The position numbers and the translations under genes were made by a program. A stretch of DNA of 64,000 nucleotides from Endosaccharibacter trunci (lineage in GTDB: Bacteria; Pseudomonadota; Alphaproteobacteria; Acetobacterales; Acetobacteraceae), in contig JAMSKV010000004.1 of NCBI GenBank assembly GCA_024515975.1, forward strand, positions 124,001 to 188,000, in the 5' to 3' direction. Under the pieces are notes generated by a model. That model did not search any database, was not told the origin of the DNA, and saw nothing but the letters and a program-made list of their open reading frames with translations. Each line of letters opens with the position of its first letter. The first letter of the stretch is position 1. Of this stretch, positions 5,615-60,495 are shown in pieces.

Positions 5615-5865
5615 CACAACCACCGTTCCCAGAACATTGCGAACACGAAGTTCGCCGGCACCGACAGCAAGATCAGGGCCAGTGAGAGATCCATGAAGCT
5701 CGGCTGCTCGAACGCGAAACACATCAGCGCCAGCACCATTGCCGACAGCGACGTCGCGAGTTGCAGCGCCGCCAGCCGCGCGAAACCGCTGCCACGCCCG
5801 ACGCAGACCAGCGCCACCATGGCGGGAACCAGCACGCCCAGCGTTGCCAGGAGCCAGATCGTCAT
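5614..5865 (-). CDS. mnhF: Mrp antiporter subunit F
   Basis: An 83-residue hydrophobic protein with three membrane segments. RGSGFARLAALQLATSLSA is followed by SFMDLSLALILLSVPANFVF, the MnhF/PhaF pattern in which an acidic residue lies in the last helices. It overlaps mrpE by four bases (ATGA) and mrpG by one base. Confidence 0.9.
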   Translation of the reverse strand: MTIWLLATLGVLVPAMVALVCVGRGSGFARLAALQLATSLSAMVLALMCFAFEQPSFMDLSLALILLSVPANFVFAMFWERWL

Positions 5866-45665: not shown

Positions 45666-45731
45666 AACGGAATGCTCCTCGAGGCGATGCTTTGCGGCGA
45701 CAGCGAGCGGCCCCACAAAGGCGAGGCACAT

Positions 45732-46514
45732 ATGAGCGGCGATCCGGGGTGGGTCAAGCAGGACACCGGTCCCGAGACCGATACGGGCGCGCCGGCCACC
45801 ACCGCCGGCACCCTGCTGGGCGGCCGCGTCGCCTACCAGCAATATCGAGGCGCCTATCGCACCGGGCTGGAACCTGTGCTGATGGCCGCCGCCGTGCCGG
45901 CGCGCGCCGGACAGCGCGTCCTCGAAGCCGGCTGCGGCGCCGGCGCCGGGCTGCTCTGCCTGGGCGCGCGGGTGGCCGGTCTGCACGGAACCGGCATCGA
46001 GCTCGATCCGGAGATGGCGGAACTGGCCCGGCGCAACCTGGGTGCGAACGGCCTGGACTGGCCGGTGCTACGGGCGGCCTTGCAGGACGCCGACCAGGCG
46101 GGACCATTCCATCATGCCTTCGCCAATCCTCCCTGGCACCGGGCCGCGGCGACCGCCTCCGCCGACCCTAAGCGCGATCTGGCCCGTCGCGCGCCGCCCG
46201 GGATGCTCGCCGAATGGATCGACGCCCTGGCCGCGCGTCTCCTGCACCGGGGAACGCTGACCCTGGCGCTTCCGGCCGGCCAGCATGCCGAGGCTGCATC
46301 CGCCCTGCTCCGCGCGGGCTTCGGCAGCCTGGTGCTGCATCCGTTCTGGCCGAAAGCGGGTCGCCCGGCCCGGATTCTCCTGCTGCAGGCCGTTCTGGGC
46401 GGGCGCGGCGACGGCGTCGTCCTGCCCGGGCTGACGCTGCATCGGCCGGATGGCGGCTTCACGGACGAGGCGGAAGCCGTTCTGCGACACGGCCAGGCGC
46501 TTCCCCTGCGCTGA
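45732..46514 (+). CDS. TrmN6/YfiC-like adenine-N6 methyltransferase
   Basis: A 260-residue class I methyltransferase. LEAGCGAGAGLLCL is the SAM-binding loop, TGIELDPEMAELARRN the second motif and FANPPWHR the NPPW catalytic motif of N6-adenine methyltransferases. Closest family by pattern is tRNA1(Val) A37 N6-methyltransferase. The ATG at 45732 follows GGCGAGG. It is transcribed divergently from ispB with about 66 bases between the starts. Confidence 0.87.
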   Translation: MSGDPGWVKQDTGPETDTGAPATTAGTLLGGRVAYQQYRGAYRTGLEPVLMAAAVPARAGQRVLEAGCGAGAGLLCLGARVAGLHGTGIELDPEMAELARRNLGANGLDWPVLRAALQDADQAGPFHHAFANPPWHRAAATASADPKRDLARRAPPGMLAEWIDALAARLLHRGTLTLALPAGQHAEAASALLRAGFGSLVLHPFWPKAGRPARILLLQAVLGGRGDGVVLPGLTLHRPDGGFTDEAEAVLRHGQALPLR

Positions 46515-46857
46515 CACCCGGCCCGGCGCGGCCAATCGGGCAACGCTGTCGAACGTCACCGGTCCAGCAACACCGTGCGGCAGTCCGGCGCCCAGACCTG
46601 GCGCGGCAGCGGATCTCCCGCAACGTGCACCGCAGGCGCCGCGATCCGGTTCAGCCTGTGCCGATAACCGCGCGACGACCCGCACCGGCCATGCATCCGG
46701 CTTCGCCCGCGCCGGTACGACCATCACGCGCGGCTCCCGGACCATCGAGAGCGGCAGCGCGTCGGGCACCGTGCGACGACGGACGGGCCGGCCCGGTCAG
46801 CGACGCCTTGTGCGGCGACCCCGCCGCGATCGGCCTGGCCGCGCTACGGTCATCGCG
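46515..46857. other. Non-assigned 343-base gap
   Basis: Between the methyltransferase and the TonB receptor gene, both of which end here. Several open frames exist on both strands, as expected in GC-rich DNA, but none has a plausible ribosome binding site plus protein-like composition. No terminator with a T-run is visible. Confidence 0.5.
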
Positions 46858-49122
46858 TCAGAGCGCATAACGCAGACTCAGGAACAGGGTACGTGGATCG
46901 GCGAAGGCGGCCGAATACAGCAGGGGAACGCCGTTCCTCTGCAGAAGCGACAGGCTTTGCGGATAGCGCCGGTCGCCGAGATTCCGTCCGGTCAAGGCCG
47001 CACTCCAGCGCCTGGACGGTGATACCCAGGATAGTTGCGCATTCAGATAGACTTGGTCGGGGAGACGCGTGAAACCGTTCTCCAGCGCATCTGTGAAGAC
47101 CGCGCTCTGGAAACTCGCATCGCCCCCGACGCGGAACTGTCCGGCGACGCGCGGAACGTCGAAGCTGTAGCTGGCGGAAAGATCGCCCTGGAAGCGCGGC
47201 GAGAACGGCAGGCGCTCCCCGTCATGCGGCGTGGCGTTGACCAGCAATCCGGTGGGATAAAGCGTGGAGACGGCATTTCCGTCGAACCGGTCCAGCTGAG
47301 CGAACAGATAGGAGCCGGTCGCCGCGACCTCCACACCCCGCAGCGGATGCAGCGTTCCCTCGATCTCCGCCCCCCAGGAATGGCCGTTGCCCGCGTTGTA
47401 GCGACGCGACAATCCGGTGGACGGGTCGCTGGTGGTGATCTGGATATCGTTGAAGTCGTTGTAGAACAGGGCGGTGTTGATCCAGAACCGGTTCGGGATC
47501 GGGTCGGTCTTGGCCCCGACCTCGTAGGTGGTGACGGTTTCGGGCCCGTAGGGCAGCACGGCCTGGCGCGGCACCGCCGGATTCTGGGCGCGATAATCGT
47601 AGCCGGCGGATTTCCCGCCCTGCGAGATCGTCGCATACAACATCACGTTCGGGCGCAACTGCCATTCGATCGACCCTTTCGGCAAAGCACGGAACCAGTG
47701 TCCGCGCGCCGAGACTGCCCAGTTCAGCGCCCCCGGCGGCGTATCGTAGAGGGCCGTGAGATCGCCGCCGACGCCGGTCACGAAACCGGGCACCGGCCCG
47801 AGCGAGCGCAACGTCTCCGAGTTCGAATGCCATTCCCCGTTCAAGCGAAGCCCCGCGGACAGGGTCACGGTGGGCAGGACTTTGTAATGCGCGATCCCGT
47901 AGAGCGCGGCGTTCCAGTTTTTCTGGTCGATCACCGCATTCACCGGCTGGAACTGCATCCGGTTCGGATCGTTGCTGAGCGCGCCGAACGTATTGTTGGC
48001 GCGGCGCGCGGTGTACCATTCCTCGAAGAAGCCGTATGCACCGGTGGTGATGCTGAGCCGGTTCCACTGCCCGTCCAGCCGGAACTCCTGCGAGTAGGCG
48101 CGGTCGCGGTAATAGAGCAGTTGCGAGGTGCGCGCATAAACATCGCCCGTATTGTCGTAGGCGCCGGTATCGTCGTAGCCGCGCACCGCGGTGATCGAGC
48201 GGAGATCGAGATGCGGGCCGAGCGTCTGGATCGCCGTTCCGGTGAAGCCGGCCTCGCTGTAGTTGTTCTTCGGGAACACGATCGAATAGGCGCCGTAGCG
48301 ATACCGGTTCAGCAGGTTCGCGTAGCCGCGATTGGTGCTGCCATCCACCGTGCCATCGAACGCCAGCGTGATGTCGAGCGTATCGTTGGGCGTGAAGCGC
48401 AGCTTGGCGCGCGCCTGGGTGTAATCGATCGTGTTGACATCCTTGTCCAGCGTATAATTGTGGTCCGTGCCGTCCCGGCCGTGATGCTCGAAGGCGAGGC
48501 TGGCATAGACCTTGTCCCGGATGAGAGGCCCGCTGGCGGCGAAACCGGTCTTCCATTCGTTGTAGCTGCCATAACCGGTTTCGGCGACGAAGCGCGTTTT
48601 GTCGCCGGGAACGACCGTGGTGATCCGCACTGCGCCGCCCTCGGCCTGATGCCCGGTGGTGAAGCCGACCGGTCCGCGATCGACCTGGATATCCTCGATA
48701 TCGAGCAGTTCCTGCATGGTGCCGATCGTGCGCGGCAGATAGACGCCGTCGATATAGGTGCCGACCGACGGCTCGCCTTGCGGATCGAGTTCGCCGATAC
48801 CGCGGATGAAGTAGTTCGAGTTGGAATAGCCGACCGTCGCGCGCGGCTGATACAGATTGGGCGTCAGATTGGTGATCTGTCGCGTGCTCGTCACGCCCAG
48901 CGCGGCAAGACGTTGCGCGGACAGCATGGAGGACGACGCCGCGCTGTGCTGCAGCGTCTTATGACGGCGCTCCAGTCTGGATTGCGACACCACGCGCACC
49001 GTCTCGGCCGGTGTGGTGCTCTGCGACGCGGCTTCCGCCCTGGCGCAACCCCCTCCCAGCCCGATCGGCATGGCCACGGCCAGGACGGTCGAGGCGAGAA
49101 GGCGTGAGACGAGGCTGGGCAT
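46858..49122 (-). CDS. TonB-dependent receptor beside the sulfur island
   Basis: A 754-residue outer-membrane receptor with a signal peptide (LLASTVLAVAMPIGLGGG), a plug domain (ITNLTPNLYQPRATVGYSNSNYFIRGIGELDPQGEPSVGTYIDGVYLPR) in the style of sugar or organic-compound receptors rather than classical siderophore receptors, and a barrel ending in LFLSLRYAL. The ATG at 49122 is preferred over a GTG at 49131. It is divergent from the sulfur-scavenging flavoprotein gene, suggesting import of an organosulfur compound across the outer membrane; this is inference from position. Confidence 0.92.
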   Translation of the reverse strand: MPSLVSRLLASTVLAVAMPIGLGGGCARAEAASQSTTPAETVRVVSQSRLERRHKTLQHSAASSSMLSAQRLAALGVTSTRQITNLTPNLYQPRATVGYSNSNYFIRGIGELDPQGEPSVGTYIDGVYLPRTIGTMQELLDIEDIQVDRGPVGFTTGHQAEGGAVRITTVVPGDKTRFVAETGYGSYNEWKTGFAASGPLIRDKVYASLAFEHHGRDGTDHNYTLDKDVNTIDYTQARAKLRFTPNDTLDITLAFDGTVDGSTNRGYANLLNRYRYGAYSIVFPKNNYSEAGFTGTAIQTLGPHLDLRSITAVRGYDDTGAYDNTGDVYARTSQLLYYRDRAYSQEFRLDGQWNRLSITTGAYGFFEEWYTARRANNTFGALSNDPNRMQFQPVNAVIDQKNWNAALYGIAHYKVLPTVTLSAGLRLNGEWHSNSETLRSLGPVPGFVTGVGGDLTALYDTPPGALNWAVSARGHWFRALPKGSIEWQLRPNVMLYATISQGGKSAGYDYRAQNPAVPRQAVLPYGPETVTTYEVGAKTDPIPNRFWINTALFYNDFNDIQITTSDPSTGLSRRYNAGNGHSWGAEIEGTLHPLRGVEVAATGSYLFAQLDRFDGNAVSTLYPTGLLVNATPHDGERLPFSPRFQGDLSASYSFDVPRVAGQFRVGGDASFQSAVFTDALENGFTRLPDQVYLNAQLSWVSPSRRWSAALTGRNLGDRRYPQSLSLLQRNGVPLLYSAAFADPRTLFLSLRYAL

Positions 49123-49290
49123 GACCTGCACGACGATCGGTATCCGCTGGCTGGAGGACTATCCACTGGATACGAGCGCATTTATCGATAACACCATAGA
49201 AAGATGTTTGAATAAGGAGTATGACGCTTATTAACGTCGCGTTGGCGGAGAGAGGCGCTACCATCCACCATGCAGAACAGGGGTTTCGCC

Positions 49291-50436
49291 ATGGACGGAT
49301 CGATCACACCTCAGTTTTCCCGGGACGCGGAGATCGACGCCGTCGCCGCGCTCTGGGCGCGCACCGCCGCGCAGCATGATCGCGACGCCACCTTGCCGCG
49401 CGAGGCCCTCGCCTTGGCGCACAGGCACGGGCTGCTGTCCCTCGCCATCCCGGCCGAGCAGGGCGGCTCGGGCACCGACCTCGCGACGCTGGCCGACATC
49501 GTCGGGCGCCTGGCGCAAGGCGATCCGGCCGCCACGCTGATCCTGGTGATGCACACGCTGATCCATGCCGGCATCGCCCGCGACGCGCGCTGGCCGGCGC
49601 GTCTGCGCGACGCCGTCGTGCGCGCGACGCTCGAGGAAGGCGCGCTGCTGAACGCCCTGCGCGTCGAGCCCGATCTCGGCACCCCGGCCCGGGGCGGCCT
49701 GCCGGACACGGTCGCCCGCAAGGATGGCGGACAGTGGCGCATCACAGGCCGCAAGATCTATTCCACCGGCGGCGCGCTGCTCCGATGGGGTTTGGTCTGG
49801 GTCAGGACGGATGATCCAGCGCCCCGGACCGGCTTCGTCCTCGTGCCGCTCGACGCCGAGGGCGTCTCGATCGAGGCCAGCTGGAACCATCTCGGTATGC
49901 GGGCCTCCGGCAGCCACACGGTGGTGTTCGACGATGTCGCCGTGCCGCTCGACCACGCCGTGGACGTGCGGTCGCCCGAGGAATGGGCCGCTCCCGATCC
50001 CGCGCATGCGCTCTGGGGGAACGTCCTGGTCGCGGCCCTGTATGACGGGGTCGCACGTTCGGCCCGGCACTGGCTCGGCACGTTCCTGCGCGAACGCACC
50101 CCGTCCAATCTCGGTCGCCCGCTCGCGACCCTGCCGCGCATCCAGGAACAGGTCGGGCAGATCGACGCGATCCTGCTCAGCAACCGCCTCGTCCTGGCCG
50201 GCGCGGCCGGCGGGAGGGTCGATGCAGCAGAAAGCGGTCTGGTCAAGACGCTGGTCTGCGAGAACGCCATACGCGCCGTGGACCTCGCTCTCGCCCTGAG
50301 CGGAAACCATGGCCTGTCCCGCGACAACCCGCTGGAACGGCACCACAGGGACGTCCTGTGCAGCCGCGTGCATACGCCGCAGCCCGATGCCGCCTTCGGC
50401 ATGGCCGGACGCGTCGCGCTGGAGTCCGGGTCTTGA
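49291..50436 (+). CDS. Acyl-CoA dehydrogenase-fold flavoprotein (SfnB/DszC-like)
   Basis: A 381-residue acyl-CoA dehydrogenase superfamily protein. Features: HGLLSLAIPAEQGGSGTDLATLADIVGRLAQGDPA, WRITGRKIYSTGG, LGMRASGSHTVVFDDVAVP, and a helical C-terminus ending in SLSGNHGLSRDNPLERHHRD-like sequence (here ALSGNHGL). These are typical of FMN/FAD-dependent monooxygenases such as DszC and SfnB, used in organosulfur breakdown. AGGGG lies eight bases before the ATG at 49291. The stop overlaps the next gene's TTG start, so it is coupled to the binding-protein genes. Confidence 0.88.
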   Translation: MDGSITPQFSRDAEIDAVAALWARTAAQHDRDATLPREALALAHRHGLLSLAIPAEQGGSGTDLATLADIVGRLAQGDPAATLILVMHTLIHAGIARDARWPARLRDAVVRATLEEGALLNALRVEPDLGTPARGGLPDTVARKDGGQWRITGRKIYSTGGALLRWGLVWVRTDDPAPRTGFVLVPLDAEGVSIEASWNHLGMRASGSHTVVFDDVAVPLDHAVDVRSPEEWAAPDPAHALWGNVLVAALYDGVARSARHWLGTFLRERTPSNLGRPLATLPRIQEQVGQIDAILLSNRLVLAGAAGGRVDAAESGLVKTLVCENAIRAVDLALALSGNHGLSRDNPLERHHRDVLCSRVHTPQPDAAFGMAGRVALESGS

Positions 50437-51416
50437 GCCGCGAGATGCGCCGCCGCGACATTCTGGCGGCGGCCGGCGCCGCCGCGCTCGCGGGCACATC
50501 GCGCATGCGGCCGGCCTTCGCGGCACCGCAACTGGACAGATCCCTGCGCGTCGGCGTGTATCGCGGCGGCGACCAGACCCTCCTGTCCGGCACCGGTCTC
50601 GATCATGCCGATTATGCCGTGCAGTACGGCGAGTTCACCGGCGGCAACCTGATCAACCAGGCGATCGACGCCGGCGCGCTCGATCTCGGCAGCTCCAGCG
50701 AGATTCCCCTGGTGTTCGCCGCCACCGCCAGAGCCCGGCTGCGCGCCGTGGCCACGCTGGAAGGGCCGACCGCGAACCAGGCGGTGATCGTGCCGAAAGA
50801 CTCTCCCGCCCGCTCCATCGCCGATCTGCGCGGCAAGCGCGTCGGCTATATTCGCGCCACCACCGCGCATTATTTTCTGATCCGCATGCTCCAGCAGCAC
50901 GGCATGAGCTTCGCCGACATCCAGCCGGTCGCCATCGGCATGAGCGCCGGTCTGTCGGCGATGACTTCGGGCGCGCTCGATGCCTGGGCTACCTACGGCT
51001 ACGTGATCCCGATGCTGCAGGTCCGGATCGGAACGCGTACCCTGCAAACGGCGACCGGCATCCTGTCCGGCAACTACATCTTCTCCGCCGCCACCGCCGA
51101 TCTGGACGATCCCGCCTTCCAGGCCGCAGCGCTCGACTACCTGTCGCGCCTGGACCGGGCCTACGCCATTCTCGACGCCGACAAGCCGCGCTGGGCCAGG
51201 CTGGTCTCGCCGGTGGTCGGCGTTCCCTATGACGTCGTCCTGGCCGATCTGCGCTCGTTCGAGCGACGCTTTCACGTGCGGGCCAGTCGGCCGTCCGATA
51301 TCGACAGCGCCCGCGCCGTCGCCGCCACCTTCGCCGGGGCGGGATTGCTGCCGAAGGACGTCGATGTCGCCAGCAGCTTTTCTGATAGTCTTTCTGGAGG
51401 ACTGCCCCGTGCGTGA
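50433..51416 (+). CDS. SsuA/TauA-like sulfonate substrate-binding protein (Tat leader)
   Basis: A 327-residue periplasmic binding protein of the aliphatic-sulfonate/NMT1 type. A twin-arginine leader (MRRRDILAAAGAAALAGTS) is followed by SLRVGVYRGGDQTLL, VQYGEFTGGNLINQAIDAGALDLGSSSEIP, and SIADLRGKRVGYIRATTAHYFL. The TTG at 50433 is chosen for its GGAG spacing and TTGA overlap with the preceding stop; the ATG at 50445 is an alternative. No ABC permease or ATPase accompanies it. Confidence 0.88.
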   Translation: MSREMRRRDILAAAGAAALAGTSRMRPAFAAPQLDRSLRVGVYRGGDQTLLSGTGLDHADYAVQYGEFTGGNLINQAIDAGALDLGSSSEIPLVFAATARARLRAVATLEGPTANQAVIVPKDSPARSIADLRGKRVGYIRATTAHYFLIRMLQQHGMSFADIQPVAIGMSAGLSAMTSGALDAWATYGYVIPMLQVRIGTRTLQTATGILSGNYIFSAATADLDDPAFQAAALDYLSRLDRAYAILDADKPRWARLVSPVVGVPYDVVLADLRSFERRFHVRASRPSDIDSARAVAATFAGAGLLPKDVDVASSFSDSLSGGLPRA

Positions 51417-52431
51417 TTCGGCACGACGCGGCGCCGCGTTCGAGGCGTGGCACCGCCACCGTGCCAGCCTGGCTCATTCGCGGCTGCGCGCGCGCCGTCG
51501 CATCGCCACGGCCGCGCTGCTCGCCGCCGCCCTGTTCGGCGGCTACGCGCGGGCCCGTGCGGCGGACGAAGCGTCCCTGCGCGTCGCGGACCAGAAAGGG
51601 CTGGTGCATGCGCTCCTGGACGCATCGCATGCCCTCGACGGCGCGCCCTATCACATCGACTGGAGCGAGTTCGAGAACGCGGCGCCGCTGCTACAGGCGA
51701 TCAACGCGGATGCTGTCGATACCGGCATCGCCGGGGACGGGCCGTTCCTGTTCGCCTTCGGGGCGGGACAGGATGTTCGCGCGACTCAGGCCGTCCTGCC
51801 GCGTGCGGGCGGCCGGGCCGTCGCGATCGTGGTGCCCTCAGGATCGCCGATCCGCACGCTCGCCGACCTCGCCGGACGACGGATCGCGACCACACGCGGT
51901 TCCATCGGCCACGAACTGCTGCTCGCCCTCGAACAGGACGGGCGGCTGCGATCCCCGGGACCGCTGGTGACGCTATCGCCTGCCCAGGCCGCCGCGGCGC
52001 TTCGCGCCGGCAGCGTCGCGGCCTGGTCGACCTGGGAGCCCTATGTCGCGCTGACAGAGGCGCAGGGCGGGCATCGAATTGCCGACGGCACCGGGGTGCT
52101 CGCGAACTACGCCTTTCAGGTCTCGAACCATCGCGCCATCGCCGAGAAGCACGCGCTGCTGCAGGATTTCTACCATCGTCTGGCGCTGGCCTACGCCTGG
52201 GGCAACGACCATCCCGACCAGTACGCGGCGATCTGGTCGCGTCAGGTGGGCATGCCGCTCGCCTTGTCGGTTCAGGTCGCCGACGAGATGCGCACCCATG
52301 CCGCCCCGATCGGCGACGACATCATCGCCGCGGAGCAGAAGGCTCTGGACAGCTACCGCGTCGCCGGCATCCTGCCGCCAGGAGCGGCCAGGCCTCTGTC
52401 AGAGGCGTTCGACCGCTCCTTCACGCCCTGA
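51409..52431 (+). CDS. Second SsuA/TauA-like substrate-binding protein
   Basis: A 340-residue periplasmic binding protein. A leader (RRRIATAALLAAALFGGYARA) sits behind a longer N-terminal segment than usual. The mature part has ASLRVADQKGLVHALLDAS, HIDWSEFENAAPLLQAINADAVDTGIAGDGPFLFAFGAG, and RTLADLAGRRIATTRGSIGHELLL. The GTG at 51409 has GGAGG eight bases upstream and overlaps the first binding-protein gene by eight bases. Two different receptors in tandem suggest two related sulfur ligands. Confidence 0.88.
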   Translation: MRDSARRGAAFEAWHRHRASLAHSRLRARRRIATAALLAAALFGGYARARAADEASLRVADQKGLVHALLDASHALDGAPYHIDWSEFENAAPLLQAINADAVDTGIAGDGPFLFAFGAGQDVRATQAVLPRAGGRAVAIVVPSGSPIRTLADLAGRRIATTRGSIGHELLLALEQDGRLRSPGPLVTLSPAQAAAALRAGSVAAWSTWEPYVALTEAQGGHRIADGTGVLANYAFQVSNHRAIAEKHALLQDFYHRLALAYAWGNDHPDQYAAIWSRQVGMPLALSVQVADEMRTHAAPIGDDIIAAEQKALDSYRVAGILPPGAARPLSEAFDRSFTP

Positions 52432-52447
52432 CCGCTTCCCGGGCGGC

Positions 52448-54052
52448 TCACGCCTCCAGCACGAAGAATCCGTGCGTGCCGTCACGCTCGAGCTGGGCCA
52501 CCAGACCGTATTCCCAGTCGAGATAGGCCTGCATGGCGTCATGGGCATTGTCGGTGCCCTCGTACGGACGCTTGTAGGTGTCGTCGGTGGAGGACAGCGC
52601 ATCCTCGGCGGAGAGGCCGCCAGAAACGGGGAAACCGGCCTTTCGCCAGGCAGCCGTGCCGCCCTGGAGCAGACGCGCCGGAATGCCGGCAGCGATCAGG
52701 TCGGAGGCCGCATGGCGCGCCAGCGCCCCGGTTCCGCAGGTCAGCACGATCGTGCGCTCCTCCCGCGCCAGCGCCGCCACAGGCAGGGCGGCACGGGTGC
52801 AGAAAAGTGCGCCGGGGATATGGCCGGTCCGGAACGCAACGCTGCGCGTCACGTCGATCACCAGCGCCCCGTCATGGTCCAGCAGGCGGGCCAGGGCGGC
52901 GGGGTCGATCGGCTCCGCCTGCCAGGCCGGCGCGACAACCTGCGCCGGCGCATCGCCTTCCTCGCGCGCGAGCCCGTGCCACCCTTCCAGCACATACACC
53001 TGGCGCCAGCCGAGCTGACGCAGCCAATGCGCCGCCATGTTGGCCCTGACCCCGTCATCGTCGAACAGCACCAGCGTGGCGTGGCGCACGCCGACCCATT
53101 CGTCCGTGGCCTGGACGAGCTGTCCGCCGGGCGCATTGGCGAAGCCCGCGGGATGGGCGGCGCGATACTCCTCGGGCTGACGCACATCCAGACGGAACAG
53201 CGTGCGCGTGCCGTCGTCGAGCGCCGCGAGCCCGGCCGCGTCGATCCGCTGCACGCCGGTCCGCTCCGCCAGCGCCGCCGCACGGGCGCGGGCCGCCTCG
53301 AGATGCGGCCCGCTCGCGGCGGGCGCCGTGCGGTCGGCCTCGTGCTCCAGCTCCAGCCCGGCGAGGGTCCAGCCGATCGTGCCGTTGCGCAGCGCGAAGA
53401 CCGGATTCGGGATCCCGGCATTGCGCAGACTCTGCGCGCCGATGATCGAACGCGTGCGCCCGGCGCAGTTCACCACCACGGTGGTGCGCGGGTCGGGCGC
53501 CGCATCCCGCGCACGCAGCGCGAGTTCGCCGCCCGGCACGCTGCGGCTGCCGGGGATGGTCATGGTCCGGTATTCCTCGAACCGACGCGCATCCAGCACC
53601 ACCAGATCGTCGCCCCCGTCCAGCCGGGCCCGCAGGGCCTCTGCCGGCAGGGACGGAGTCCGCGCCCGCGCTTCCACCAGCTCGCCGAACGCCTTTCCGG
53701 GCACATGGACATCCCGGAACAGCTCGCCGCCGCTCGTGCGCCAGCCCTCGAGGCCGCCCTCGAGCACCGACACCTCGCTGTAACCCAGCCGGGCGAACAC
53801 GCTCAGCGCCCGGCCCGCCAGATCGGTGCCCTCGACGGGATCGTCCTCGCCATATAACACGACCGGCGCCGCCCGGTTCGGCAGCAGCACAGGCGCCATC
53901 AGCTCGATGCGCCCGAGCGGAATGTTCACGGCGAACAGGGGATGGGCCCGCGAGAACGGCCCCTCCTCCCGAAGATCGATCAGGGCGATCTCCGCGCCAT
54001 CCCGGAGCCGCGCGCGAACCGCCTCCGCACGTGTTTCCCGGCGGCCGCTCAT
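52448..54052 (-). CDS. Four-domain rhodanese sulfurtransferase
   Basis: A 534-residue soluble protein built from four rhodanese-fold repeats. Repeats 2 and 4 keep an active-site Cys: Cys196 in VVVNCAGRTRS and Cys439 in IVLTCGTGALA. Repeats 1 and 3 lack it (VVLYGEDDPVEG near 65-75 and LVLFDDDGVRA near 328-337). The pattern inactive-active-inactive-active is that of two fused two-domain sulfurtransferases. It overlaps the thiol dioxygenase gene (ATGA). It probably carries persulfide sulfur released in the pathway; the donor and acceptor are unknown. Confidence 0.9.
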   Translation of the reverse strand: MSGRRETRAEAVRARLRDGAEIALIDLREEGPFSRAHPLFAVNIPLGRIELMAPVLLPNRAAPVVLYGEDDPVEGTDLAGRALSVFARLGYSEVSVLEGGLEGWRTSGGELFRDVHVPGKAFGELVEARARTPSLPAEALRARLDGGDDLVVLDARRFEEYRTMTIPGSRSVPGGELALRARDAAPDPRTTVVVNCAGRTRSIIGAQSLRNAGIPNPVFALRNGTIGWTLAGLELEHEADRTAPAASGPHLEAARARAAALAERTGVQRIDAAGLAALDDGTRTLFRLDVRQPEEYRAAHPAGFANAPGGQLVQATDEWVGVRHATLVLFDDDGVRANMAAHWLRQLGWRQVYVLEGWHGLAREEGDAPAQVVAPAWQAEPIDPAALARLLDHDGALVIDVTRSVAFRTGHIPGALFCTRAALPVAALAREERTIVLTCGTGALARHAASDLIAAGIPARLLQGGTAAWRKAGFPVSGGLSAEDALSSTDDTYKRPYEGTDNAHDAMQAYLDWEYGLVAQLERDGTHGFFVLEA

Positions 54053-54681
54053 GATGCGCGCACCGCAGCCGACCGATCCCAGAGATTCGGCAGCAGATCG
54101 GCGGCGTAGCCGGACACGAACGATTTCTCCACGCCGGTTTCCTCGTCGAAGGTGGCGCGTTTCACCGCACCGATATTGGCGCCATAGACATGGATCGATA
54201 GCGAGACCCGGTCCCCGAACAGGTTCGACACGCGATGCAGATCGCCTGCCTCCGGCGAGAGGGTGGCGATGGCGCCCGCGGGCAGCACGGCTTCCTCCGT
54301 TTCCCGCAGCCGGCCGTCGTCGCCGCGCTCGAACCGGGTTTCGCGTTCTCCGCCGCGCAGCACGCCGATCAGGCCCCAGACGCGATGATCGTGGATCGGC
54401 GTGCGCTGACCCGGTCCCCAGACGAAGCTGACGACGCTGAAGCGTTCGAGCGGATCGCAATGCAGCAGGAACTGCTGATAGAATTGCGGATGCGGCTGCG
54501 CGAAGCGCTCGTCCAGCCAGTCGTCCCGTTCGATCAGCGCGGCAAGCAGCGCGCCGCCCTCGCCCAGCACCGTCCCCTGGTCGGGGTCGCGTTCGATCAG
54601 CCGCGTGAAATCGGCGACGAAGCCGCGCAGGCGGCCTGGATCGGCTACGGCCGCAATGTCCTGTCTCGTCGCGGCGCTCAT
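54049..54681 (-). CDS. Cysteine dioxygenase family thiol dioxygenase
   Basis: A 210-residue cupin of the cysteine dioxygenase family. The 3-His iron site is His97 and His99 (RTPIHDHRVWGLIGVLRG) and His149 (GDLHRVSNLFGD). Known members oxidise cysteine, 3-mercaptopropionate or mercaptosuccinate to sulfinates. The ATG overlaps the stop of the class II aldolase gene, and its own stop overlaps the rhodanese start. Which thiol it uses is unknown; the company of a hydroxyacid dehydrogenase and aldolase makes a thiol-carboxylate plausible. Confidence 0.9.
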   Translation of the reverse strand: MSAATRQDIAAVADPGRLRGFVADFTRLIERDPDQGTVLGEGGALLAALIERDDWLDERFAQPHPQFYQQFLLHCDPLERFSVVSFVWGPGQRTPIHDHRVWGLIGVLRGGERETRFERGDDGRLRETEEAVLPAGAIATLSPEAGDLHRVSNLFGDRVSLSIHVYGANIGAVKRATFDEETGVEKSFVSGYAADLLPNLWDRSAAVRAS

Positions 54682-55475
54682 TGCAGCAGGTCCGGCTCGG
54701 CGGCGGTGATGAAGTCCCAGAGCGGCTGGAACGAGGCGGTGCCCCCGGCGTGCCGGCCGACCTGGCTTGCGGTCAGCCGCGCGATCTCCGGCGCGATCGG
54801 CCGGGTCTGCCCGGCGGCATCGGCCAGAAGCTGGGTATGGGCCGCATCGTCCATGGCAAGGAACCACCAGGCGGCGGCCTCCACCGTCGGCCCGACCGTC
54901 AGCAGGCCATGGTTCTGCAGGATCAGCGCCTTGCGGTCGCCGAGGGTGGCGGCGAGTCGCACCCCCTCATCCGGTTCCAGCACCACGCCGCTGAACGGGT
55001 CGAACACCGCATGGTCCTCATAGAAGGCACAGGAATCCTGCGTCAGCGGATCGAGCAGCTTGCCCAGGGACGAGAACGCCTTGCCATAGGTGCTGTGGGT
55101 ATGCGCGGCGGCGACCACGTCGGGCCGTGCGGCATGGATCGCGGAGTGGATCACGAAGCCCGCGGTGTTGATCGGGCGGTCGCCGATCAGGATGTTGCCG
55201 TGATGGTCCACCAGTTGAAGATCGGACACCTTGATCTGCCCGAAATGCTGGCCGAGCGGATTGATCCAGAAGTGATCCGGGTTTTCCGGATCGCGCGCGG
55301 TCACGTGGCCTGCCAGGCCCTGGTCGAAGCCGCGCCGGCTGAACAAGCGGAACGTGGCGGCCAGACGCTGCTTGCGATGCAGCCGCTCTTCTTCGAACGT
55401 GGCGGCCGGCGGCCGTTGCGGCAGGGCGAAACGGCGCGGCGGCGAAGCGATCTCGGTGAGGCCGTCCATGGACAT
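54678..55475 (-). CDS. Class II aldolase/adducin family protein
   Basis: A 265-residue zinc-dependent aldolase-fold protein. The metal site is AAAHTHSTYGKAF plus LILQNHGLLTVG; GLAGHVTARDPENPDHFWINPLG is the substrate-phosphate region equivalent. Members cleave sugar phosphates or decarboxylate related acids. It is the third gene of the five-gene minus-strand operon and starts 15 bases after the dehydrogenase stop. Confidence 0.9.
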   Translation of the reverse strand: MSMDGLTEIASPPRRFALPQRPPAATFEEERLHRKQRLAATFRLFSRRGFDQGLAGHVTARDPENPDHFWINPLGQHFGQIKVSDLQLVDHHGNILIGDRPINTAGFVIHSAIHAARPDVVAAAHTHSTYGKAFSSLGKLLDPLTQDSCAFYEDHAVFDPFSGVVLEPDEGVRLAATLGDRKALILQNHGLLTVGPTVEAAAWWFLAMDDAAHTQLLADAAGQTRPIAPEIARLTASQVGRHAGGTASFQPLWDFITAAEPDLLQ

Positions 55476-55490
55476 GCTCCTTGCTGTGTT

Positions 55491-56489
55491 TCAGTAGCCG
55501 CGCGCGGGATCGACCACGTCGCGAAGGCTGTCGCCCGCCAGAAAGGCGTCCAGATTGGCGTGGATCTGCTGCACCAGACGGGTTCGGTCCGGGTCCCCGC
55601 CCCAGGCGATATGCGGCGTCAGCCGGACCCGCTGGTGGCTGAAGAACGGATGGGCTTCGGGCAGCGGCTCCGGCTCGGTCACGTCGAGGGTGGCGAACCC
55701 CACCCGTCCTGAATCGAGCGCCGCCAGCAATGCCGCCTGATCGACCAGGGCGCCGCGGGCGATATTGATCAGATGCAGACCCGGCCGGGCCTGCGCCAGC
55801 ACGGCCGCATCGACGCAGTCGCGCGTGTGCTGCGTGAGCGGCAGCGCCAGCACCAGATGATCCACCGCGCCGGCCAGCGCCGAGAGGCTGTCCACCGGAA
55901 CCACCCCAGCCGCTTCGGCGGCGCCGGGCGCCCAGGGGCGGCGCTTCCAGGCCCGCACCTCCAGGCCGAACGCGCGCGCCCGGGACGCGACCTCGCGGCC
56001 GATGCTACCGAAACCGGCGAGGCCGAGCCGGCGGCCAAACACGCGTCGGCCGCCCCCGGCGCTCCCCATCCCCGCCAGCCAGGCTTCGCGGCTCCGCACG
56101 CTGCGTTGCGCGAGACCGAGATCGCGATCGAGCACGGCACCCAGCACGTATTCGGCGATCTGGCGCGCATGATGGCCGCGGCCGCAGGTCAGCACCGGGG
56201 TTCCGGTGCGTAGCCAGGGCGGCGTCCAGTCCACCCCGGTCGAACTGCTCTGCACCCAGCGCAGCCGGCCGGGCCAGCCCGGCGGCGCCAGGCTCGGGGC
56301 GTCGGCCCAGGCCGGATGCGGACCGCTGAGCAGGATCTCGGCATCGTCCAGCGCGGCAGGGCGGTCGTTCGCGGCCAGCCAGGGCGCAGGTCCCGGCGGG
56401 AGATCCAGCACCGCGGGCGCCGAGGCATGCGCTGCGACGGCGCGCCCCACGGCGGCGCCGAGCTGGTTGAGGATGGTCGGGCGCGACAC
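55491..56489 (-). CDS. D-2-hydroxyacid dehydrogenase family protein
   Basis: A 332-residue NAD(P)-dependent dehydrogenase. LGLAGFGSIGREVASRARAFGLEV is the dinucleotide-binding motif, LINIARGALVDQAALLAAL carries the Arg region, FATLDVTEPEPLPEAHPFF the Glu, and LTPHIAWGG the catalytic His. The GTG at 56489 is chosen from AGGGG spacing and lies 14 bases after the monooxygenase stop. It would interconvert a 2-hydroxyacid and a 2-oxoacid made in the sulfur pathway. Confidence 0.88.
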   Translation of the reverse strand: MSRPTILNQLGAAVGRAVAAHASAPAVLDLPPGPAPWLAANDRPAALDDAEILLSGPHPAWADAPSLAPPGWPGRLRWVQSSSTGVDWTPPWLRTGTPVLTCGRGHHARQIAEYVLGAVLDRDLGLAQRSVRSREAWLAGMGSAGGGRRVFGRRLGLAGFGSIGREVASRARAFGLEVRAWKRRPWAPGAAEAAGVVPVDSLSALAGAVDHLVLALPLTQHTRDCVDAAVLAQARPGLHLINIARGALVDQAALLAALDSGRVGFATLDVTEPEPLPEAHPFFSHQRVRLTPHIAWGGDPDRTRLVQQIHANLDAFLAGDSLRDVVDPARGY

Positions 56490-56503
56490 GGATTTGCCCC
56501 TGC

Positions 56504-57592
56504 TCAGGCCGCCGCGGCCTCGTCCGGCCGCTCCCGGGCCGCCAGCTCTCTGACAGCGGGGATCAGGTCGCGGCCGTAGAGATAGGCGTCGAGCAGCGGA
56601 TCGAAGCCCCGGATCAGGAAGGTGTCGATACCGATGCGGTGGTAGTCCAGCATCGCCTCGGCCACCTGCTCCGGCGTGCCGACCAGGGAGGTGGAGTTGC
56701 CCCTGGCGCCGGTCAGGGCGGCGATGCCGGTCCAGAGCCGCTTGTCCAGGCGGGAGCCGCGCGCCGCGGCATCCAGCAGACGACGCGATCCCTCGTTCGG
56801 CGGCGGCTCGGCTGGCCCCTGCCCGCTGGCCGCCCGCAGCGCCCTCGCTTCCTCGAGAATACGGTCCGCGCGGGCCCAGGCGGCCTCCTCGGTCTCCGCC
56901 ACGATGGGGCGCAGCGACAAGGAGAAACGCGGCCGACGTCCGAACGGGGCCGCCGCGGCGCGGACCCGGGACACGGTCTCTCGTACTTGCTCCAGCGTCT
57001 CGCCCCACAAGGCATAGACGTCGGCGTGCTTGCCGGCCACGGCGATCGCTTCCGGCGACGATCCGCCGAAATAGATCGGGATGCCCTCGGCTCGGAACGG
57101 GTGGATCGCCGAATGCGCCCCGCGCACGGAATAGAAGCGGCCTTCGTAATCGAACGGGGCCGTCTCGCTCCATTCCTTGCGCACGATGTCGAGATACTCG
57201 GCCGTGCGCGCATAGCGCTCCGCCTTGTGGGTGTGGTCGCCATCCGCCTGCAGCTCGATGTCGCTGCCCCCGGTGATCACGTGAACCGCAACACGGCCGC
57301 GCGAGATATGGTCCAGCGTCGCCAGCTGGCGCGCGAGGATGGTCGGCGCATTGAAGCCGGGTCGGTGCGCGATCATCAGCCCGAGGCGGCTTGTCACGCT
57401 GGCGGCATGCTGCGCGACCAGGATGCTTTCCGGCGAGGTGGAGTGGAAAGCGAACAGGACCCGGTCGAAGCCCGCGTTCTCATGCACGGCCGCCGCCGCC
57501 CGCACATGCGTCAGATCGAGCGGAGCACCCGTGGCAGCCACGGATTCCGACTGGTTGTGGTTGCCCACATATCCGATGAATTCGATCGTCAT
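56504..57592 (-). CDS. LLM class flavin-dependent monooxygenase (SsuD-like)
   Basis: A 362-residue bacterial luciferase-like FMNH2-dependent enzyme. FAFHSTSPESILVAQHAAS, GLMIAHRPGFNAPTILARQLATLDHISRGRVAVHVITGG, and GIPIYFGGSSPEAIAVAGKHADVYALWGE match alkanesulfonate monooxygenases such as SsuD. These release sulfite from organosulfonates and need an FMN reductase, which is not in the window. It is the first gene of the minus-strand sulfur operon and is divergent from a LysR gene. Confidence 0.9.
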   Translation of the reverse strand: MTIEFIGYVGNHNQSESVAATGAPLDLTHVRAAAAVHENAGFDRVLFAFHSTSPESILVAQHAASVTSRLGLMIAHRPGFNAPTILARQLATLDHISRGRVAVHVITGGSDIELQADGDHTHKAERYARTAEYLDIVRKEWSETAPFDYEGRFYSVRGAHSAIHPFRAEGIPIYFGGSSPEAIAVAGKHADVYALWGETLEQVRETVSRVRAAAAPFGRRPRFSLSLRPIVAETEEAAWARADRILEEARALRAASGQGPAEPPPNEGSRRLLDAAARGSRLDKRLWTGIAALTGARGNSTSLVGTPEQVAEAMLDYHRIGIDTFLIRGFDPLLDAYLYGRDLIPAVRELAARERPDEAAAA

Positions 57593-57724
57593 TCCCGCCT
57601 CCGGTCGCTGTTTCGTCCGCCGAGGGGCAATTCATCCTATGATCTGTCGTTGATCTCAATCAAGATGTCGTCATATGACGCATTCATGTCGTTGATTTCG
57701 TGGTCGTGAACGGATGCCCGTGGA
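57593..57724. promoter_or_regulatory. Divergent promoter and operator region of the sulfur operon
   Basis: This 132-base gap between the SsuD-like and LysR genes is AT-richer than its flanks. It holds TTGAT-CTCA-ATCAA (57650-57663) and a perfect 12-bp palindrome CGTCATATGACG (57669-57680). Both are candidate regulator-binding sites. Which protein binds is inferred from position only. Confidence 0.62.
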
Positions 57725-58690
57725 ATGAGATTCCCTCCCGCCCCCTCCGGGCCGGCCGCTCACCCGCCCGATGCCGTCCTGCCGCGCCGGCCGCAGCGTG
57801 CGGCAGTCAATCTGTCGATCGATCTGCTCCGGTCCTTCGTCGCCATCGTCGACATGGGCTCGATCTCGCAGGCCACAGACCGGATCTTCCTCACCCAGTC
57901 CGCTCTCAGCCTGCAGATGAAGCGCCTGGAGGACCAGCTTCGGCAGCGTCTGTTCGACCGGCAGGGCCGCGCCCTCAAGCTGACGCCGGCCGGAGAGGAG
58001 CTGGCAGCACAAGCCCGCCGGCTGCTCGCCCTGAACGACGACATCGTCGCGTCCCTTGGCATCGGCGGCGGGACGGCGCCGATCCGGTTCGGCATGGTGC
58101 AGGATTTCGCCGAGACAGTGCTTCCTGTGCTGCTGCCCGTGTTCCGGACCCGACAGCCGGAGGCCAGGCTGCAATTGAGGATCGGCGGATCGGCCGAGCT
58201 AGGGGAGCTGTTCGACCGGTCGCGCCTGGAAATGGCCCTGGTCTATGGCCGGCCGCCGATGCCCCGTCTGGGCAGCGTCACGCCGATGGGGGTGGAGTCG
58301 ATGAGCTGGATCGGCGATCCGGCGCTCGCACAGGAGGCCGTGCTGCCCTTGGTCGTGCTGGACGAACCCTGCGCTTTTCGGTCCGCCCTGCTCGACACGC
58401 TGGAGCGCTCGGAACGGGCCTATCGCATCGTCCTGGAAACCCCGCATCTCCCTGGGCTGACTGCCTCTTTGCGCGCCGGGTTTGGCCTCACCTGCAGAAC
58501 GACGGCCTACGCGGCGTTCCACGACCTTCCGGTCCCGCCCTGCGATCTGCCGTCGCTCCCGGTGATCGAACGCGCGCTGCTGTGTCGCGACCGTCTGCAG
58601 CCGGCGGCGGAAAGCCTGTCGGTCCTGCTGCGACAGCTTTCCCCGCAACCGTCAGGAAATCTCGTGGAGGATGGCGCGTTCGATAGCTGA
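57725..58690 (+). CDS. LysR family regulator of the sulfur operon
   Basis: A 321-residue LysR protein. The winged helix is LLRSFVAIVDMGSISQATDRIFLTQSALSLQMKRLEDQLRQRLFDRQGR, and a periplasmic-like effector domain follows. The divergent position suggests control of the adjacent five-gene operon, as CysB and Cbl do for sulfur-starvation genes. The start may be the ATG at 57725 or the GTG at 57806, which would remove a Pro-rich tail. Confidence 0.9.
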   Translation: MRFPPAPSGPAAHPPDAVLPRRPQRAAVNLSIDLLRSFVAIVDMGSISQATDRIFLTQSALSLQMKRLEDQLRQRLFDRQGRALKLTPAGEELAAQARRLLALNDDIVASLGIGGGTAPIRFGMVQDFAETVLPVLLPVFRTRQPEARLQLRIGGSAELGELFDRSRLEMALVYGRPPMPRLGSVTPMGVESMSWIGDPALAQEAVLPLVVLDEPCAFRSALLDTLERSERAYRIVLETPHLPGLTASLRAGFGLTCRTTAYAAFHDLPVPPCDLPSLPVIERALLCRDRLQPAAESLSVLLRQLSPQPSGNLVEDGAFDS

Positions 58691-58755
58691 TGCACCACTG
58701 AAATCAGCCGCTTCGGACGGGAGCATCTCCAGCGCCGAAAGTTCTGGCCTTCCGG

Positions 58756-58784
58756 GCGATGCCGGCGGGACGCGCCGGCATCGC
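58756..58784. terminator. 12-bp perfect hairpin between convergent genes
   Basis: GCGATGCCGGCG-GGACG-CGCCGGCATCGC forms a 12-bp perfect stem between the ends of the LysR and hibernation-factor genes. No T-run follows on either strand; it may act as a bidirectional terminator. Confidence 0.6.
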
Positions 58785-58797
58785 GCGAGTCCGACAA

Positions 58798-59160
58798 TCA
58801 GGCAACGCTCTGCTTGATGGTGTCGGTAGAGCGCTTCTGGCTCTTGAAGCTTTCCAGACGGCGCTCCGCCGCCTTGAACGCCTCCTTGGTAGCGCTGCGC
58901 ACATCGGGATGGGCGCGGCGCTCCTTCGCATGGTGCGGCTCGTGCGAGATCACGATGTCCTGGCCCGGCACGGAAAAGGTGATGTGCACCTCGTACGAGT
59001 TGCCGGTCTGATGCTGCTGGTGCAACGCCTCGACGGAAACGCGACAGCCGATCAATCGCCCGTAGCGCGCTTCCAGCTTCTCGACTTGCGCCCTGATCTC
59101 GGCTTCGAGCGACTCCGAGCGCTGCAGGTTGTGGAAGGCGATCTCGAGCGGACGGTCCAT
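58798..59160 (-). CDS. hpf: Ribosome hibernation promoting factor family protein (HPF/RaiA, short form)
   Basis: A 120-residue protein with the S30AE fold pattern: LEIAFHNLQRSESLEAEIRAQVEKLEARYGRLIGCRVSVEAL, then NSYEVHITFSVPGQDIVI. HPF-type proteins bind the 30S subunit and store ribosomes in an inactive state under stress. GAGGAG lies upstream of the ATG at 59160. Length excludes the long-form C-terminal dimerisation domain. Confidence 0.85.
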   Translation of the reverse strand: MDRPLEIAFHNLQRSESLEAEIRAQVEKLEARYGRLIGCRVSVEALHQQHQTGNSYEVHITFSVPGQDIVISHEPHHAKERRAHPDVRSATKEAFKAAERRLESFKSQKRSTDTIKQSVA

Positions 59161-59256
59161 GGCGTATCTCCTCTGACCGGGGCGACCAGATACCCCGGGC
59201 AGAAGATGGGAACGGCCGGATGGCAAGCCGGTTTCAGCGGCTTGCCATCGCCAGGA

Positions 59257-60288
59257 TCAGGCCGGAACCGAGGTTTCCTCATGCCAATCGGCACCGATGG
59301 AGGAGGAGAAGGCTTCCTCCCAGGTGCCGGAGGTGGAGGCGCGGCTGTATTCGGTGGAGCGGTTCTCGAAGAAGTTCGCGTGCTCCACCGCGTTCAGCAG
59401 GTCGTCCAGCCAGGGCAGCGGGTTGCTGGCGACGTTGTAGAGCGGCTCCAGCCCGAGCTGGATCAGGCGGCGATCGGCGATGAAGCGGATATACCGCTTC
59501 ACCTGCGCCGCATCGAGACCTTCCACCGGACCCAGCTCGAACGCGAGGTCGATGAACGCGTCCTCGTGATGGACGATGGTGGCGCAGATCTCGCTCAGCT
59601 CGGCGCGGAGCTGGTCGGTCCAGATTTCCGGGTTCTCCTGCACGAAGGTGCGGAACAGGCGGATCACGGACAGGCAATGCAGGGTCTCGTCGCGCACCGA
59701 CCAGGTCACGATCTGCCCCATGCCCTTGAGCTTGTTGAAACGCGGGAAGTTCAGCAGGATCGCGAAGGACGCGAAGAGCTGCAGTCCTTCGGTAAAGGCG
59801 CCGAACGCGGCGAGAGTCTTGGCGATCTCGTGCTTGCTGTCGACCGAGAAGCCCTGCATGTAATCGTACTTGTCCTTCATCTCCTTGTACTGGAGGAAGG
59901 CCGAGTATTCCTGCTCGGGCATGCCGATGGTGTCGAGCAGATGGCTGTAGGCGGCGATATGCACCGTCTCGATATTGGAGAAGGCGGACAGCATCATCAG
60001 CACTTCGGTCGGTTTGAACACCTGGCTGTAGTGCTTCATGTAGCAGTTGTTCACTTCCACGTCCGACTGCGTGAAGAAGCGAAAGATCTGCGTGACGAGA
60101 TTGCGCTCGCCGTCGGACAGGTTGCGGTGCCAGTCCTTGACGTCGTCGGCCAGCGGAACCTCTTCCGGCAGCCAATGCACGCGCTGTTGCGTATGCCAGG
60201 CCTCGTAGGCCCACGGATAGCGGAACGGCTTGTAGACCGGGTTCGCGGTCAGCAGGTCGAACCTCATTTCCCCGACGGCTTGGTCCAT
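59257..60288 (-). CDS. nrdB: Class Ia ribonucleotide reductase beta subunit
   Basis: A 343-residue NrdB of the diiron family. Ligand regions are ERNLVTQIFRFFTQSDVEVNNCY, FSNIETVHIAAYSHLLDTIG, EGLQLFASFAILLNF and ATIVHHEDAFIDLAF; the C-terminal tail is free for binding NrdA. It generates the radical used to make deoxyribonucleotides. GGAG lies nine bases before the ATG at 60288. nrdA is not adjacent. Confidence 0.94.
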   Translation of the reverse strand: MDQAVGEMRFDLLTANPVYKPFRYPWAYEAWHTQQRVHWLPEEVPLADDVKDWHRNLSDGERNLVTQIFRFFTQSDVEVNNCYMKHYSQVFKPTEVLMMLSAFSNIETVHIAAYSHLLDTIGMPEQEYSAFLQYKEMKDKYDYMQGFSVDSKHEIAKTLAAFGAFTEGLQLFASFAILLNFPRFNKLKGMGQIVTWSVRDETLHCLSVIRLFRTFVQENPEIWTDQLRAELSEICATIVHHEDAFIDLAFELGPVEGLDAAQVKRYIRFIADRRLIQLGLEPLYNVASNPLPWLDDLLNAVEHANFFENRSTEYSRASTSGTWEEAFSSSIGADWHEETSVPA

Positions 60289-60495
60289 GACGTGGCGCTC
60301 CAGAAGCAAAGGGCAGCGGTCGCCGGAACGGCGTCTCGCATGCGATCGGAAGGTGGAGCCCGGGGACTCGGAACGACGCCGGGCGCGTCCCGACTATGCC
60401 CCAGAGGGGCGGAGCGGGAAACCGGGCATCGCGGCGCTATCCACAAGATATTGTGCGAGCGGGTGCATGGAACCCCTACAGATCGCTCCCCGGAC

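Follow-up and report, generated by a model that had tools for sequence, protein, structure and literature searches.

A candidate organosulfur island in Endosaccharibacter trunci whose class II aldolase most resembles non-haem iron oxygenases

Several described systems lie close to the genes considered here. NovR and CloR, from novobiocin and clorobiocin biosynthesis, are described as carrying out the O2-dependent decarboxylation of a 2-oxo acid and then of a 2-hydroxy acid (PMC13111500), and TqaM is described as catalysing the oxidative decarboxylation of a 2R-hydroxy acid (PMC11880133). These enzymes have the class II aldolase fold with three metal-binding histidines. Pyruvic oxime dioxygenase is reported as an Fe(II) dioxygenase with the same fold (PMC5216522, PMC11841055). 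On the sulfur side, PA2602-PA2603 and the 3mdo-tst unit of Pseudomonas protegens CHA0 place a 3-mercaptopropionate dioxygenase (3MDO) and a thiosulfate sulfurtransferase (rhodanese) next to each other (unit in PMC12947264). The Advenella cluster for 3,3'-dithiodipropionate and 3-mercaptopropionate holds a CoA-transferase, the desulfinase Acd and the dioxygenase Mdo (PMC5373536). The msu/sfn and ssu clusters (SfnG, MsuC, MsuD, SsuEADCB) join flavin monooxygenases of groups C and D to SsuA-type receptors. We examined a stretch of 64,000 nucleotides from Endosaccharibacter trunci (contig JAMSKV010000004.1, positions 124,001 to 188,000), hereafter the window. It holds an island of ten genes (Table 1) with relatives of several of these proteins. 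One of them, an Aldolase_II protein (ALD), had been assigned the carbon skeleton as a class II aldolase in an earlier note made from the sequence alone. We argue that ALD is probably a non-haem iron oxygenase instead.

By sequence ALD is far closer to NovR and TqaM than to FucA. It scores 250.7 bits against NovR (9ryg), 250 bits against 4xxf and 172.9 bits against TqaM, and 47-48 bits against E. coli FucA. A predicted structure model, built from 32 sequences with a pLDDT of 84.3, gives the same ranking. NovR aligns with Z 35.4 (rmsd 1.7, 248 residues aligned, 48% identity) and TqaM with Z 33.7 (rmsd 1.8, 251 aligned, 36% identity), nearly the whole chain in both cases. Pyruvic oxime dioxygenase is further off at Z 28.6 and 26% identity (Z 28-29 and 26-29% over its entries), and FucA is further still at Z about 22 and 22% identity. 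The active site can be examined in alignments filtered by length and headed by the window protein. These kept 85 of 90 homologues for ALD, 38 of 40 for the luciferase-like monooxygenase (LLM), 41 of 45 for the rhodanese, 45 of 51 for the thiol dioxygenase, 24 of 30 for the acyl-CoA-dehydrogenase-fold flavoprotein and 22 of 23 for the dehydrogenase. The window's own copy (L001) was excluded, and antisense-like frames of ALD, LLM and the rhodanese (three neighbour clusters, judged by position) were dropped. All three metal-binding histidines are invariant in the ALD family, in 86 of 86 sequences in one alignment and 91 of 91 in another. The catalytic Glu73 and Tyr113 of FucA occur in none of the 86, and its Ser71 and Ser72 are also absent. 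In pyruvic oxime dioxygenase the space of Glu73 and Tyr113 is occupied by other residues (PMC11841055), so a substitute in ALD is possible.

We set the probability of a true aldolase low, since NovR and TqaM are far nearer than FucA by bits and by Z and the FucA residues are missing. By analogy with these enzymes ALD probably decarboxylates D-2-hydroxy acids using O2. One TqaM entry in the PDB holds D-3-phenyllactate. It must be noted that the second-closest structure, 4xxf (Z 34.5, rmsd 1.6, 240 aligned, 49% identity), is titled L-fuculose-1-phosphate aldolase, and this counts against an oxygenase. ALD passes the cut-off of the NCBI model 'class II aldolase/adducin family protein'. Unlike NovR, CloR and TqaM, ALD belongs to an organosulfur gene set and has a D-2-hydroxyacid dehydrogenase as its neighbour. 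The catalytic residues of the dehydrogenase (Arg245, Glu274, His293) are kept in 23 of 23 aligned sequences, and by its family it would suit an ALD that decarboxylates D-2-hydroxy acids as a natural partner.

The island behaves as a block. In the congener G452 a single contig carries both flanks, the left one matching window 44611-46486 and the right one 58892-60290, at a distance of about 0.6 kb compared with 12.4 kb in the window. The block from the TonB receptor to the LysR gene is therefore present or absent as a unit. At that site in G452 the receptor is gone together with the rest, so it is the tenth gene of the island. In a second congener, G526, the flanks are on two contigs, hence absence of the genes is shown there and not an empty site. 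Neither congener has a match to the dioxygenase, ALD, LLM or rhodanese at strict thresholds. No tRNA was found in the window, including the borders of the block. The GC content of the block is 69.0% compared with 66.9% in the rest of the window, and equal-length stretches to its left span 63.7-69.7%. The other nine genes are open frames in the places and families that the earlier note gave them, in two units that meet tail to tail with a divergent LysR. Each island gene exceeds the Pfam cut-off for its family. The two units converge across a gap of 16 bp, and within both the genes overlap by 4-8 bp or stand 14-15 bp apart. None of the ten encodes an ABC permease or ATPase.

The island dioxygenase is predicted to be of the 3-mercaptopropionate type. 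Its nearest solved relatives are 4qma, 6xb9, 3uss and 4wvz at 217-239 bits. It reaches at most 31.4 bits against cysteine dioxygenase type 1, the mammalian type, and 44.5 bits against mercaptosuccinate dioxygenase. The CDO_I family assignment stands, but a cysteine dioxygenase of the mammalian type is not supported. Both 3uss/4tlf and 4wvz are deposited as 3-mercaptopropionate dioxygenase. The two best-matching structures, 4qma and 6xb9, carry the deposited title cysteine dioxygenase type I, which argues the other way; we assume that both act on 3-mercaptopropionate. The residues that we take to have roles in the 3MDO site are kept in 44-46 of 46 sequences: Gln70 (46), His97, His99 and His149, Ser162 (44), His164 (46), Tyr166 (46) and Arg175 (46). 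C75 is the only cysteine of the window protein, and presumably there is no partner for a Cys-Tyr crosslink. Beyond the island this dioxygenase adjoins a gene for a family III CoA-transferase at two loci (L136, L137) and a peptidase M20 gene at another (L143), with 3 of 8 loci annotated. The Advenella 3-mercaptopropionate pathway is described as a dioxygenase plus a CoA-transferase (PMC5373536). We count the pairing at L136 and L137 for the 3-mercaptopropionate type since it is like the Advenella route. The island itself differs from the Advenella cluster in having no CoA-transferase, and its flavoprotein scores 96 bits where the desulfinase cut-off is 600. Next to the 3MDO-like and CoA-transferase genes of L137 lies a lyase gene (4662-6041) that scores 345.9 bits for purB (cut-off 326.2) and 480.7 bits for the 3-sulfopropionylcysteine synthase XcbD (cut-off 600).

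The four-domain rhodanese matches 1yt8 over its whole length (545.7 bits, residues 12-533), and we take 1yt8 to be PA2603. Its loop cysteines, C196 and C439, are in domains 2 and 4 only, the same as in 1yt8. The domain 2 loop reads CAGRTRS in 42 of 42 sequences, which makes this the only domain that keeps its cysteine everywhere. Domain 3 has Asp in all 42, domain 1 has Asp in 34 and Gly in 8, and domain 4 has Cys in 26, Ser in 15 and a gap in 1. In 3 of the 8 family loci fetched where the rhodanese is not beside the 3MDO type, a mercaptosuccinate-type thiol dioxygenase stands upstream of it instead (Table 1). The rhodanese therefore has thiol dioxygenase partners of two kinds. A candidate partner at one further locus (L131) is probably a spurious frame. 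The known pathways of both dioxygenase kinds are described as releasing sulfite (PMC5373536), so we favour, by analogy, a role for the rhodanese in capturing sulfite. Two observations on the Pseudomonas pair are less encouraging. Deleting the rhodanese in P. protegens is reported to have had no significant effect on 3-mercaptopropionate levels (PMC12947264). PA2602 and PA2603 are not named in the main text of a paper on sulfur starvation in P. aeruginosa (PMC12581299), which therefore offers no evidence that sulfur controls the two. The proteins and their order are the same kind in the island, but here the pair is joined to LLM, an iron oxygenase, a dehydrogenase, a flavoprotein and receptors. 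In three Azospirillum loci (L112, L148, L149) genes for a binding protein and a TauD-family dioxygenase come after the 3MDO-rhodanese pair, and L148 adds an LLM behind these.

The gene neighbourhoods were surveyed 10 kb either way around the best 80 of 567 confirmed ALD relatives in named genomes. Many of these loci are closely related, so the counts are not independent. The partners near ALD are the dioxygenase (21), the rhodanese (21), LLM (28), the dehydrogenase (21), the flavoprotein (19), LysR at 40% identity or more (16) and the TonB receptor at 50% or more (7). Where the dioxygenase is present the rhodanese accompanies it in 21 of 21 loci and LLM in 20 of 21, the exception being L048. 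The order LysR-LLM-(dehydrogenase)-ALD-dioxygenase-rhodanese occurs in Asaia, Gluconobacter, Acetobacter, Komagataeibacter and Gluconacetobacter. Most island genes are found reordered in Undibacterium, Duganella, Burkholderia, Paraburkholderia, Variovorax and Azospirillum, and a partial set is found in Klebsiella. Within the family, 150 genomes including this one were searched with thresholds of 1e-25 for the dioxygenase, 1e-70 for ALD, 1e-100 for LLM and 1e-50 for the rhodanese; they turned up in 35, 12, 41 and 72 genomes respectively. ALD and LLM lie at most 1.2 kb apart in 10 of the 12 genomes that have ALD. ALD and the dioxygenase co-occur in 7 (Fisher p = 0.007, kinship ignored) and are adjacent in 6. 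Across the phylum the rhodanese is present in the 3.6 kb viewed at 16 of 21 dioxygenase loci from other genomes (L002-L022, dioxygenases of 49-62% identity; L023, which is split, and a further copy in G255 are excluded). We reject a chance neighbourhood because the set recurs across genera and other classes. The earlier note had proposed looking for this conservation, and both its organosulfur island and the pairing of a thiol dioxygenase with a four-domain rhodanese hold up.

The same survey also gives grounds for treating the genes separately. No partner at the thresholds used is found at 46 of the 80 ALD loci. In the family the dioxygenase adjoins the rhodanese in only 6 of 35 genomes, and these are the same six where it is adjacent to ALD. 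The modules come apart as well. ALD is not found in the part of Klebsiella L113 that was seen, LLM and ALD occur without the dioxygenase in Roseomonas L116 and Solirubrobacterales L045, and the dehydrogenase is missing from L043, L044, L046, L074, L111, L118, L119 and L121. One can imagine a scenario where there is no joint pathway, and independently useful sulfur-scavenging genes sit under one regulator with each acting on a different organosulfur compound. Modules that part and reshuffle between taxa speak for this. In Azospirillum L112 and L149 TauD-family genes follow the dioxygenase-rhodanese pair and the stretch seen holds no LLM (L148 has both), and the neighbours at L119 are ssu genes and a CysB-family regulator. 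However, the same six to eight genes recur reordered in Acetobacteraceae, Azospirillum and Burkholderiales. Chemical coupling would explain this, but co-regulation alone could too. We regard separate functions as unlikely, though a realistic possibility.

Two other neighbourhoods deserve mention. At Paraburkholderia L111 (1-1472) a fumarate-reductase-like flavoprotein and a ferredoxin precede the cluster, a pair that recalls, we assume, the subunits of APS reductase. Cyanobacterial L075 (9337-10008) and 10 other cyanobacterial loci have a divergent CDO-like protein, 34-38% identical to the window's, immediately upstream of ALD.

LLM was called SsuD-like, and this is correct as homology. It scores 240.6 bits for PF00296 and 222.6 bits for TIGR03565, where the cut-off of 518.2 is missed. 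Trp196 (W195 in MsuD) is W in 39 of 39 sequences. The arginines that bind the sulfonate are gone. The position of Arg226 (R225 in MsuD) is Ser in 39 of 39, with an Arg two residues on in 38. The column of the RGGA-loop Arg297 (R296 in MsuD) has T in 30, I in 6, V in 2 and S in 1. The loop is two residues longer and a nearby position has R in 15, K in 13 and others in 11, so a displaced Arg or Lys is possible. In MsuD, R225 (SsuD R226) and the RGGA loop are reported to be needed for sulfonate turnover (PMC8234197). Since these arginines are lost, alkanesulfonate cleavage by LLM cannot be assumed. We also set low the chance that LLM is the alkanesulfonate monooxygenase of this genome, as a separate SsuD is found about 120 kb off on the same contig, beside SsuA. 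It is 66% identical to E. coli SsuD and has WGEP, GIRLH and RGGA.

These residues bear on a sulfonate route through the island. There, the dehydrogenase and ALD would shorten sulfopyruvate or (R)-sulfolactate to sulfoacetate, LLM would split sulfoacetate to glyoxylate and sulfite, and the dioxygenase and rhodanese would form a separate thiol route in the same regulon. LLM and ALD do occur together where the dioxygenase is missing (L045, L054, L116, L117). Relatives carry SsuA-type receptors and SsuBC beside LLM and ALD, and Azospirillum B510 has LLM, the dehydrogenase and ALD with their own transporter genes. This requires LLM to work on a sulfonate after losing the R226 and the RGGA loop that bind it in SsuD and MsuD (PMC8234197), and none of the ten block genes points to sulfolactate as such. 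We find the sulfonate route distinctly unlikely. A scheme in which an SsuD-type enzyme and a thiol dioxygenase cleave a sulfonate or thiol while the dehydrogenase and a true aldolase process the carbon skeleton, as the earlier note had it, fits the Pfam family names and the title of 4xxf, but is very unlikely with the aldolase residues absent from ALD, oxygenases as its closest relatives with a described reaction, and the SsuD motif lost in LLM.

The flavoprotein had been described as SfnB/DszC-like, and by curated cut-offs it is neither. It misses those for SfnB (108.1 bits, cut-off 430.9) and DszC (45.8, cut-off 850) as well as that for the 3SP-CoA desulfinase. Its model is nearest to 5z8t, titled 'Flavin-containing monooxygenase' (Z 42.5, rmsd 2.7, 371 aligned, 30% identity); a literature search found no paper for 5z8t/5gj7. 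The family has a conserved H-T-P-Q-x-D motif, presumably at the position where acyl-CoA dehydrogenases carry the loop with the catalytic Glu. From the model our guess is a group D flavin monooxygenase. The 50 structures listed for the flavoprotein do not include MsuC, which excludes nothing. In sequence it is nearer the desulfinase 5af7 (53.9 bits) than MsuC 6u76 (31.5 bits), and other acyl-CoA dehydrogenases are nearer still, which does not favour group D. Deletion of msuC in Acinetobacter baylyi is reported to have caused no significant growth defect (PMC13352529), which counts against the proposal made below. MsuC and MsuD, described as acting from sulfinate to sulfonate to sulfite, serve as our model for the two island enzymes (PMC8234197). 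Compared with the msu/sfn and ssu clusters, the island has an LLM without the sulfonate-binding arginines and adds the thiol dioxygenase, the iron oxygenase and the rhodanese.

Two PF01613 flavin reductases are encoded elsewhere in the genome. In the relatives a RutF-type flavin reductase lies beyond LysR, near the cluster, in 10 of the mapped loci (L144, on the same contig as L047, is not counted). On another contig of the genome (C39), SsuC and SsuB share 67-72% identity with their counterparts next to the Gluconobacter and Acetobacter clusters, so the island receptors may use them. A flavin reductase and SsuBC-like pair at C34:40-43 kb was considered as lost parts of the cluster; this is not supported, and contig C39 matches better.

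We propose a sulfur-scavenging island under LysR control in which a C3 mercapto-acid is oxidised and the sulfite released is trapped, with a C4 hydroxy acid possibly shortened to feed it. We judge the case for it evenly balanced. The analysis shows the families, the active-site residues, the gene linkage and the presence or absence of the whole block; all substrates, the order of the steps, the link between the two modules and regulation by sulfur supply are what we infer. The TonB receptor and the two SsuA-type receptors would import an organosulfur acid. The thiol dioxygenase would convert a C3 mercapto-acid to the sulfinate. The flavoprotein (group D) and LLM (group C) would then oxygenate the sulfur or the adjoining carbon so that sulfite is released, with the reduced flavin for both made elsewhere in the genome. 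The domain 2 cysteine of the rhodanese would capture sulfite or sulfane sulfur. In the second module, the dehydrogenase and ALD would turn a 2-oxo or D-2-hydroxy acid into an acid one carbon shorter and CO2. A C4 sulfur hydroxy acid, 2-hydroxy-4-mercapto- or 4-methylthio-butanoate, could in this way become the C3 mercapto-acid.

A stricter version makes one oxygen-driven sulfur route of all this. A D-2-hydroxy C4 sulfur acid (the homocysteine or methionine hydroxy analogue) would pass through ALD to a 3-mercaptopropionate-type acid. The thiol dioxygenase and both flavin monooxygenases would then degrade this acid, leaving sulfite and an aldehyde acid of three carbons, for example malonic semialdehyde. 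We think this rather unlikely. A malonic semialdehyde reductase gene is present in the dioxygenase-rhodanese operon of two Azospirillum loci (the B510 copy scores 248 bits, cut-off 152), a hint of a C3 product that also speaks for the island proposal as a whole. Four other Azospirillum loci were examined and did not show it, which weakens the hint.

Regulation of the island by sulfur supply would fit the main proposal. The sequence TATGACGC has only two occurrences in the window (49220, 57674), so that each of the island's divergent promoter regions contains one. The 7-mer TATGACG occurs 11 times in the window and lies upstream of LLM in 4 of 11 other loci (L031 and the similar L038, L040 and L044). 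We consider TATGACGC a weak candidate for a shared operator. A promoter scan found none, and there are 7 terminator-like sites compared with 4.6 in shuffles. Elsewhere in the window, 36127-38148 and 38621-40642 encode adjacent 674-aa proteins, each with a pro-kumamolisin activation domain. Their equal length suggests tandem duplication of a secreted protease gene.

Table 1. Genes of the island, its extent, and the mercaptosuccinate-type dioxygenases that pair with the rhodanese at other loci. Positions are those of the window unless a locus is named.
Feature	Position	Strand	Basis
TonB-dependent outer-membrane receptor	46858..49122	-	PF00593/PF07715; present or absent with the block
Acyl-CoA-dehydrogenase-fold flavoprotein, probably a group D flavin monooxygenase	49291..50436	+	Pfam family, structure model
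SsuA-type periplasmic binding protein 1	50430..51416	+	NMT1; SsuA_fam 103.5 bits, cut-off 163.5 not reached
SsuA-type periplasmic binding protein 2, GTG start	51409..52431	+	NMT1; SsuA_fam 152.6 bits, cut-off 163.5 not reached
Four-domain rhodanese, 1yt8 type, with active-site Cys confined to domains 2 and 4	52448..54052	-	four PF00581 stretches
Thiol dioxygenase, predicted 3-mercaptopropionate type (CDO_I)	54049..54681	-	nearest solved relatives, conserved motif residues
Aldolase_II protein (ALD), closest to NovR/TqaM non-haem iron oxygenases	54678..55475	-	sequence, predicted model, residue tests
D-2-hydroxyacid dehydrogenase, GTG start; accessory	55491..56489	-	PF02826
Luciferase-like monooxygenase (LLM), group C, SsuD/MsuD relative without the sulfonate-binding arginines	56504..57592	-	PF00296; MsuD 187.6 bits
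LysR regulator, divergent; true start may be further in	57725..58690	+	PF00126/PF03466
Whole block (approximate extent), missing from the corresponding site of congener G452	46520..58800		flank alignments
Mercaptosuccinate-type dioxygenases	L128:5662-6321, L130:5848-6438, L134 about 5523-6122		L130 155.4 bits to 8vni; L128 and L134 65-68% identical to L130

Each of the families is known, and the dioxygenase-rhodanese pair is already in print (PMC12947264). No paper describing the combined gene set was found by title or abstract within the open-licence literature. As far as that literature shows, the reassigned aldolase and the presence or absence of the whole block are new. The four-domain rhodanese is now linked to two kinds of bacterial thiol dioxygenase. 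The transamination route to DMSP is described as needing the oxidative decarboxylation of a sulfur 2-hydroxy acid (PMC10989797). If the single oxygen-driven route were true, ALD would represent the iron-oxygenase branch in sulfur metabolism and would be a model for that decarboxylation. Relatives of ALD recur in sulfur clusters. If the enzymes of this branch are iron oxygenases with D-2-hydroxy acids as substrates, the metabolism read from the aldolase name would change, and the shared organosulfur gene set could be tested with a short list of substrates.

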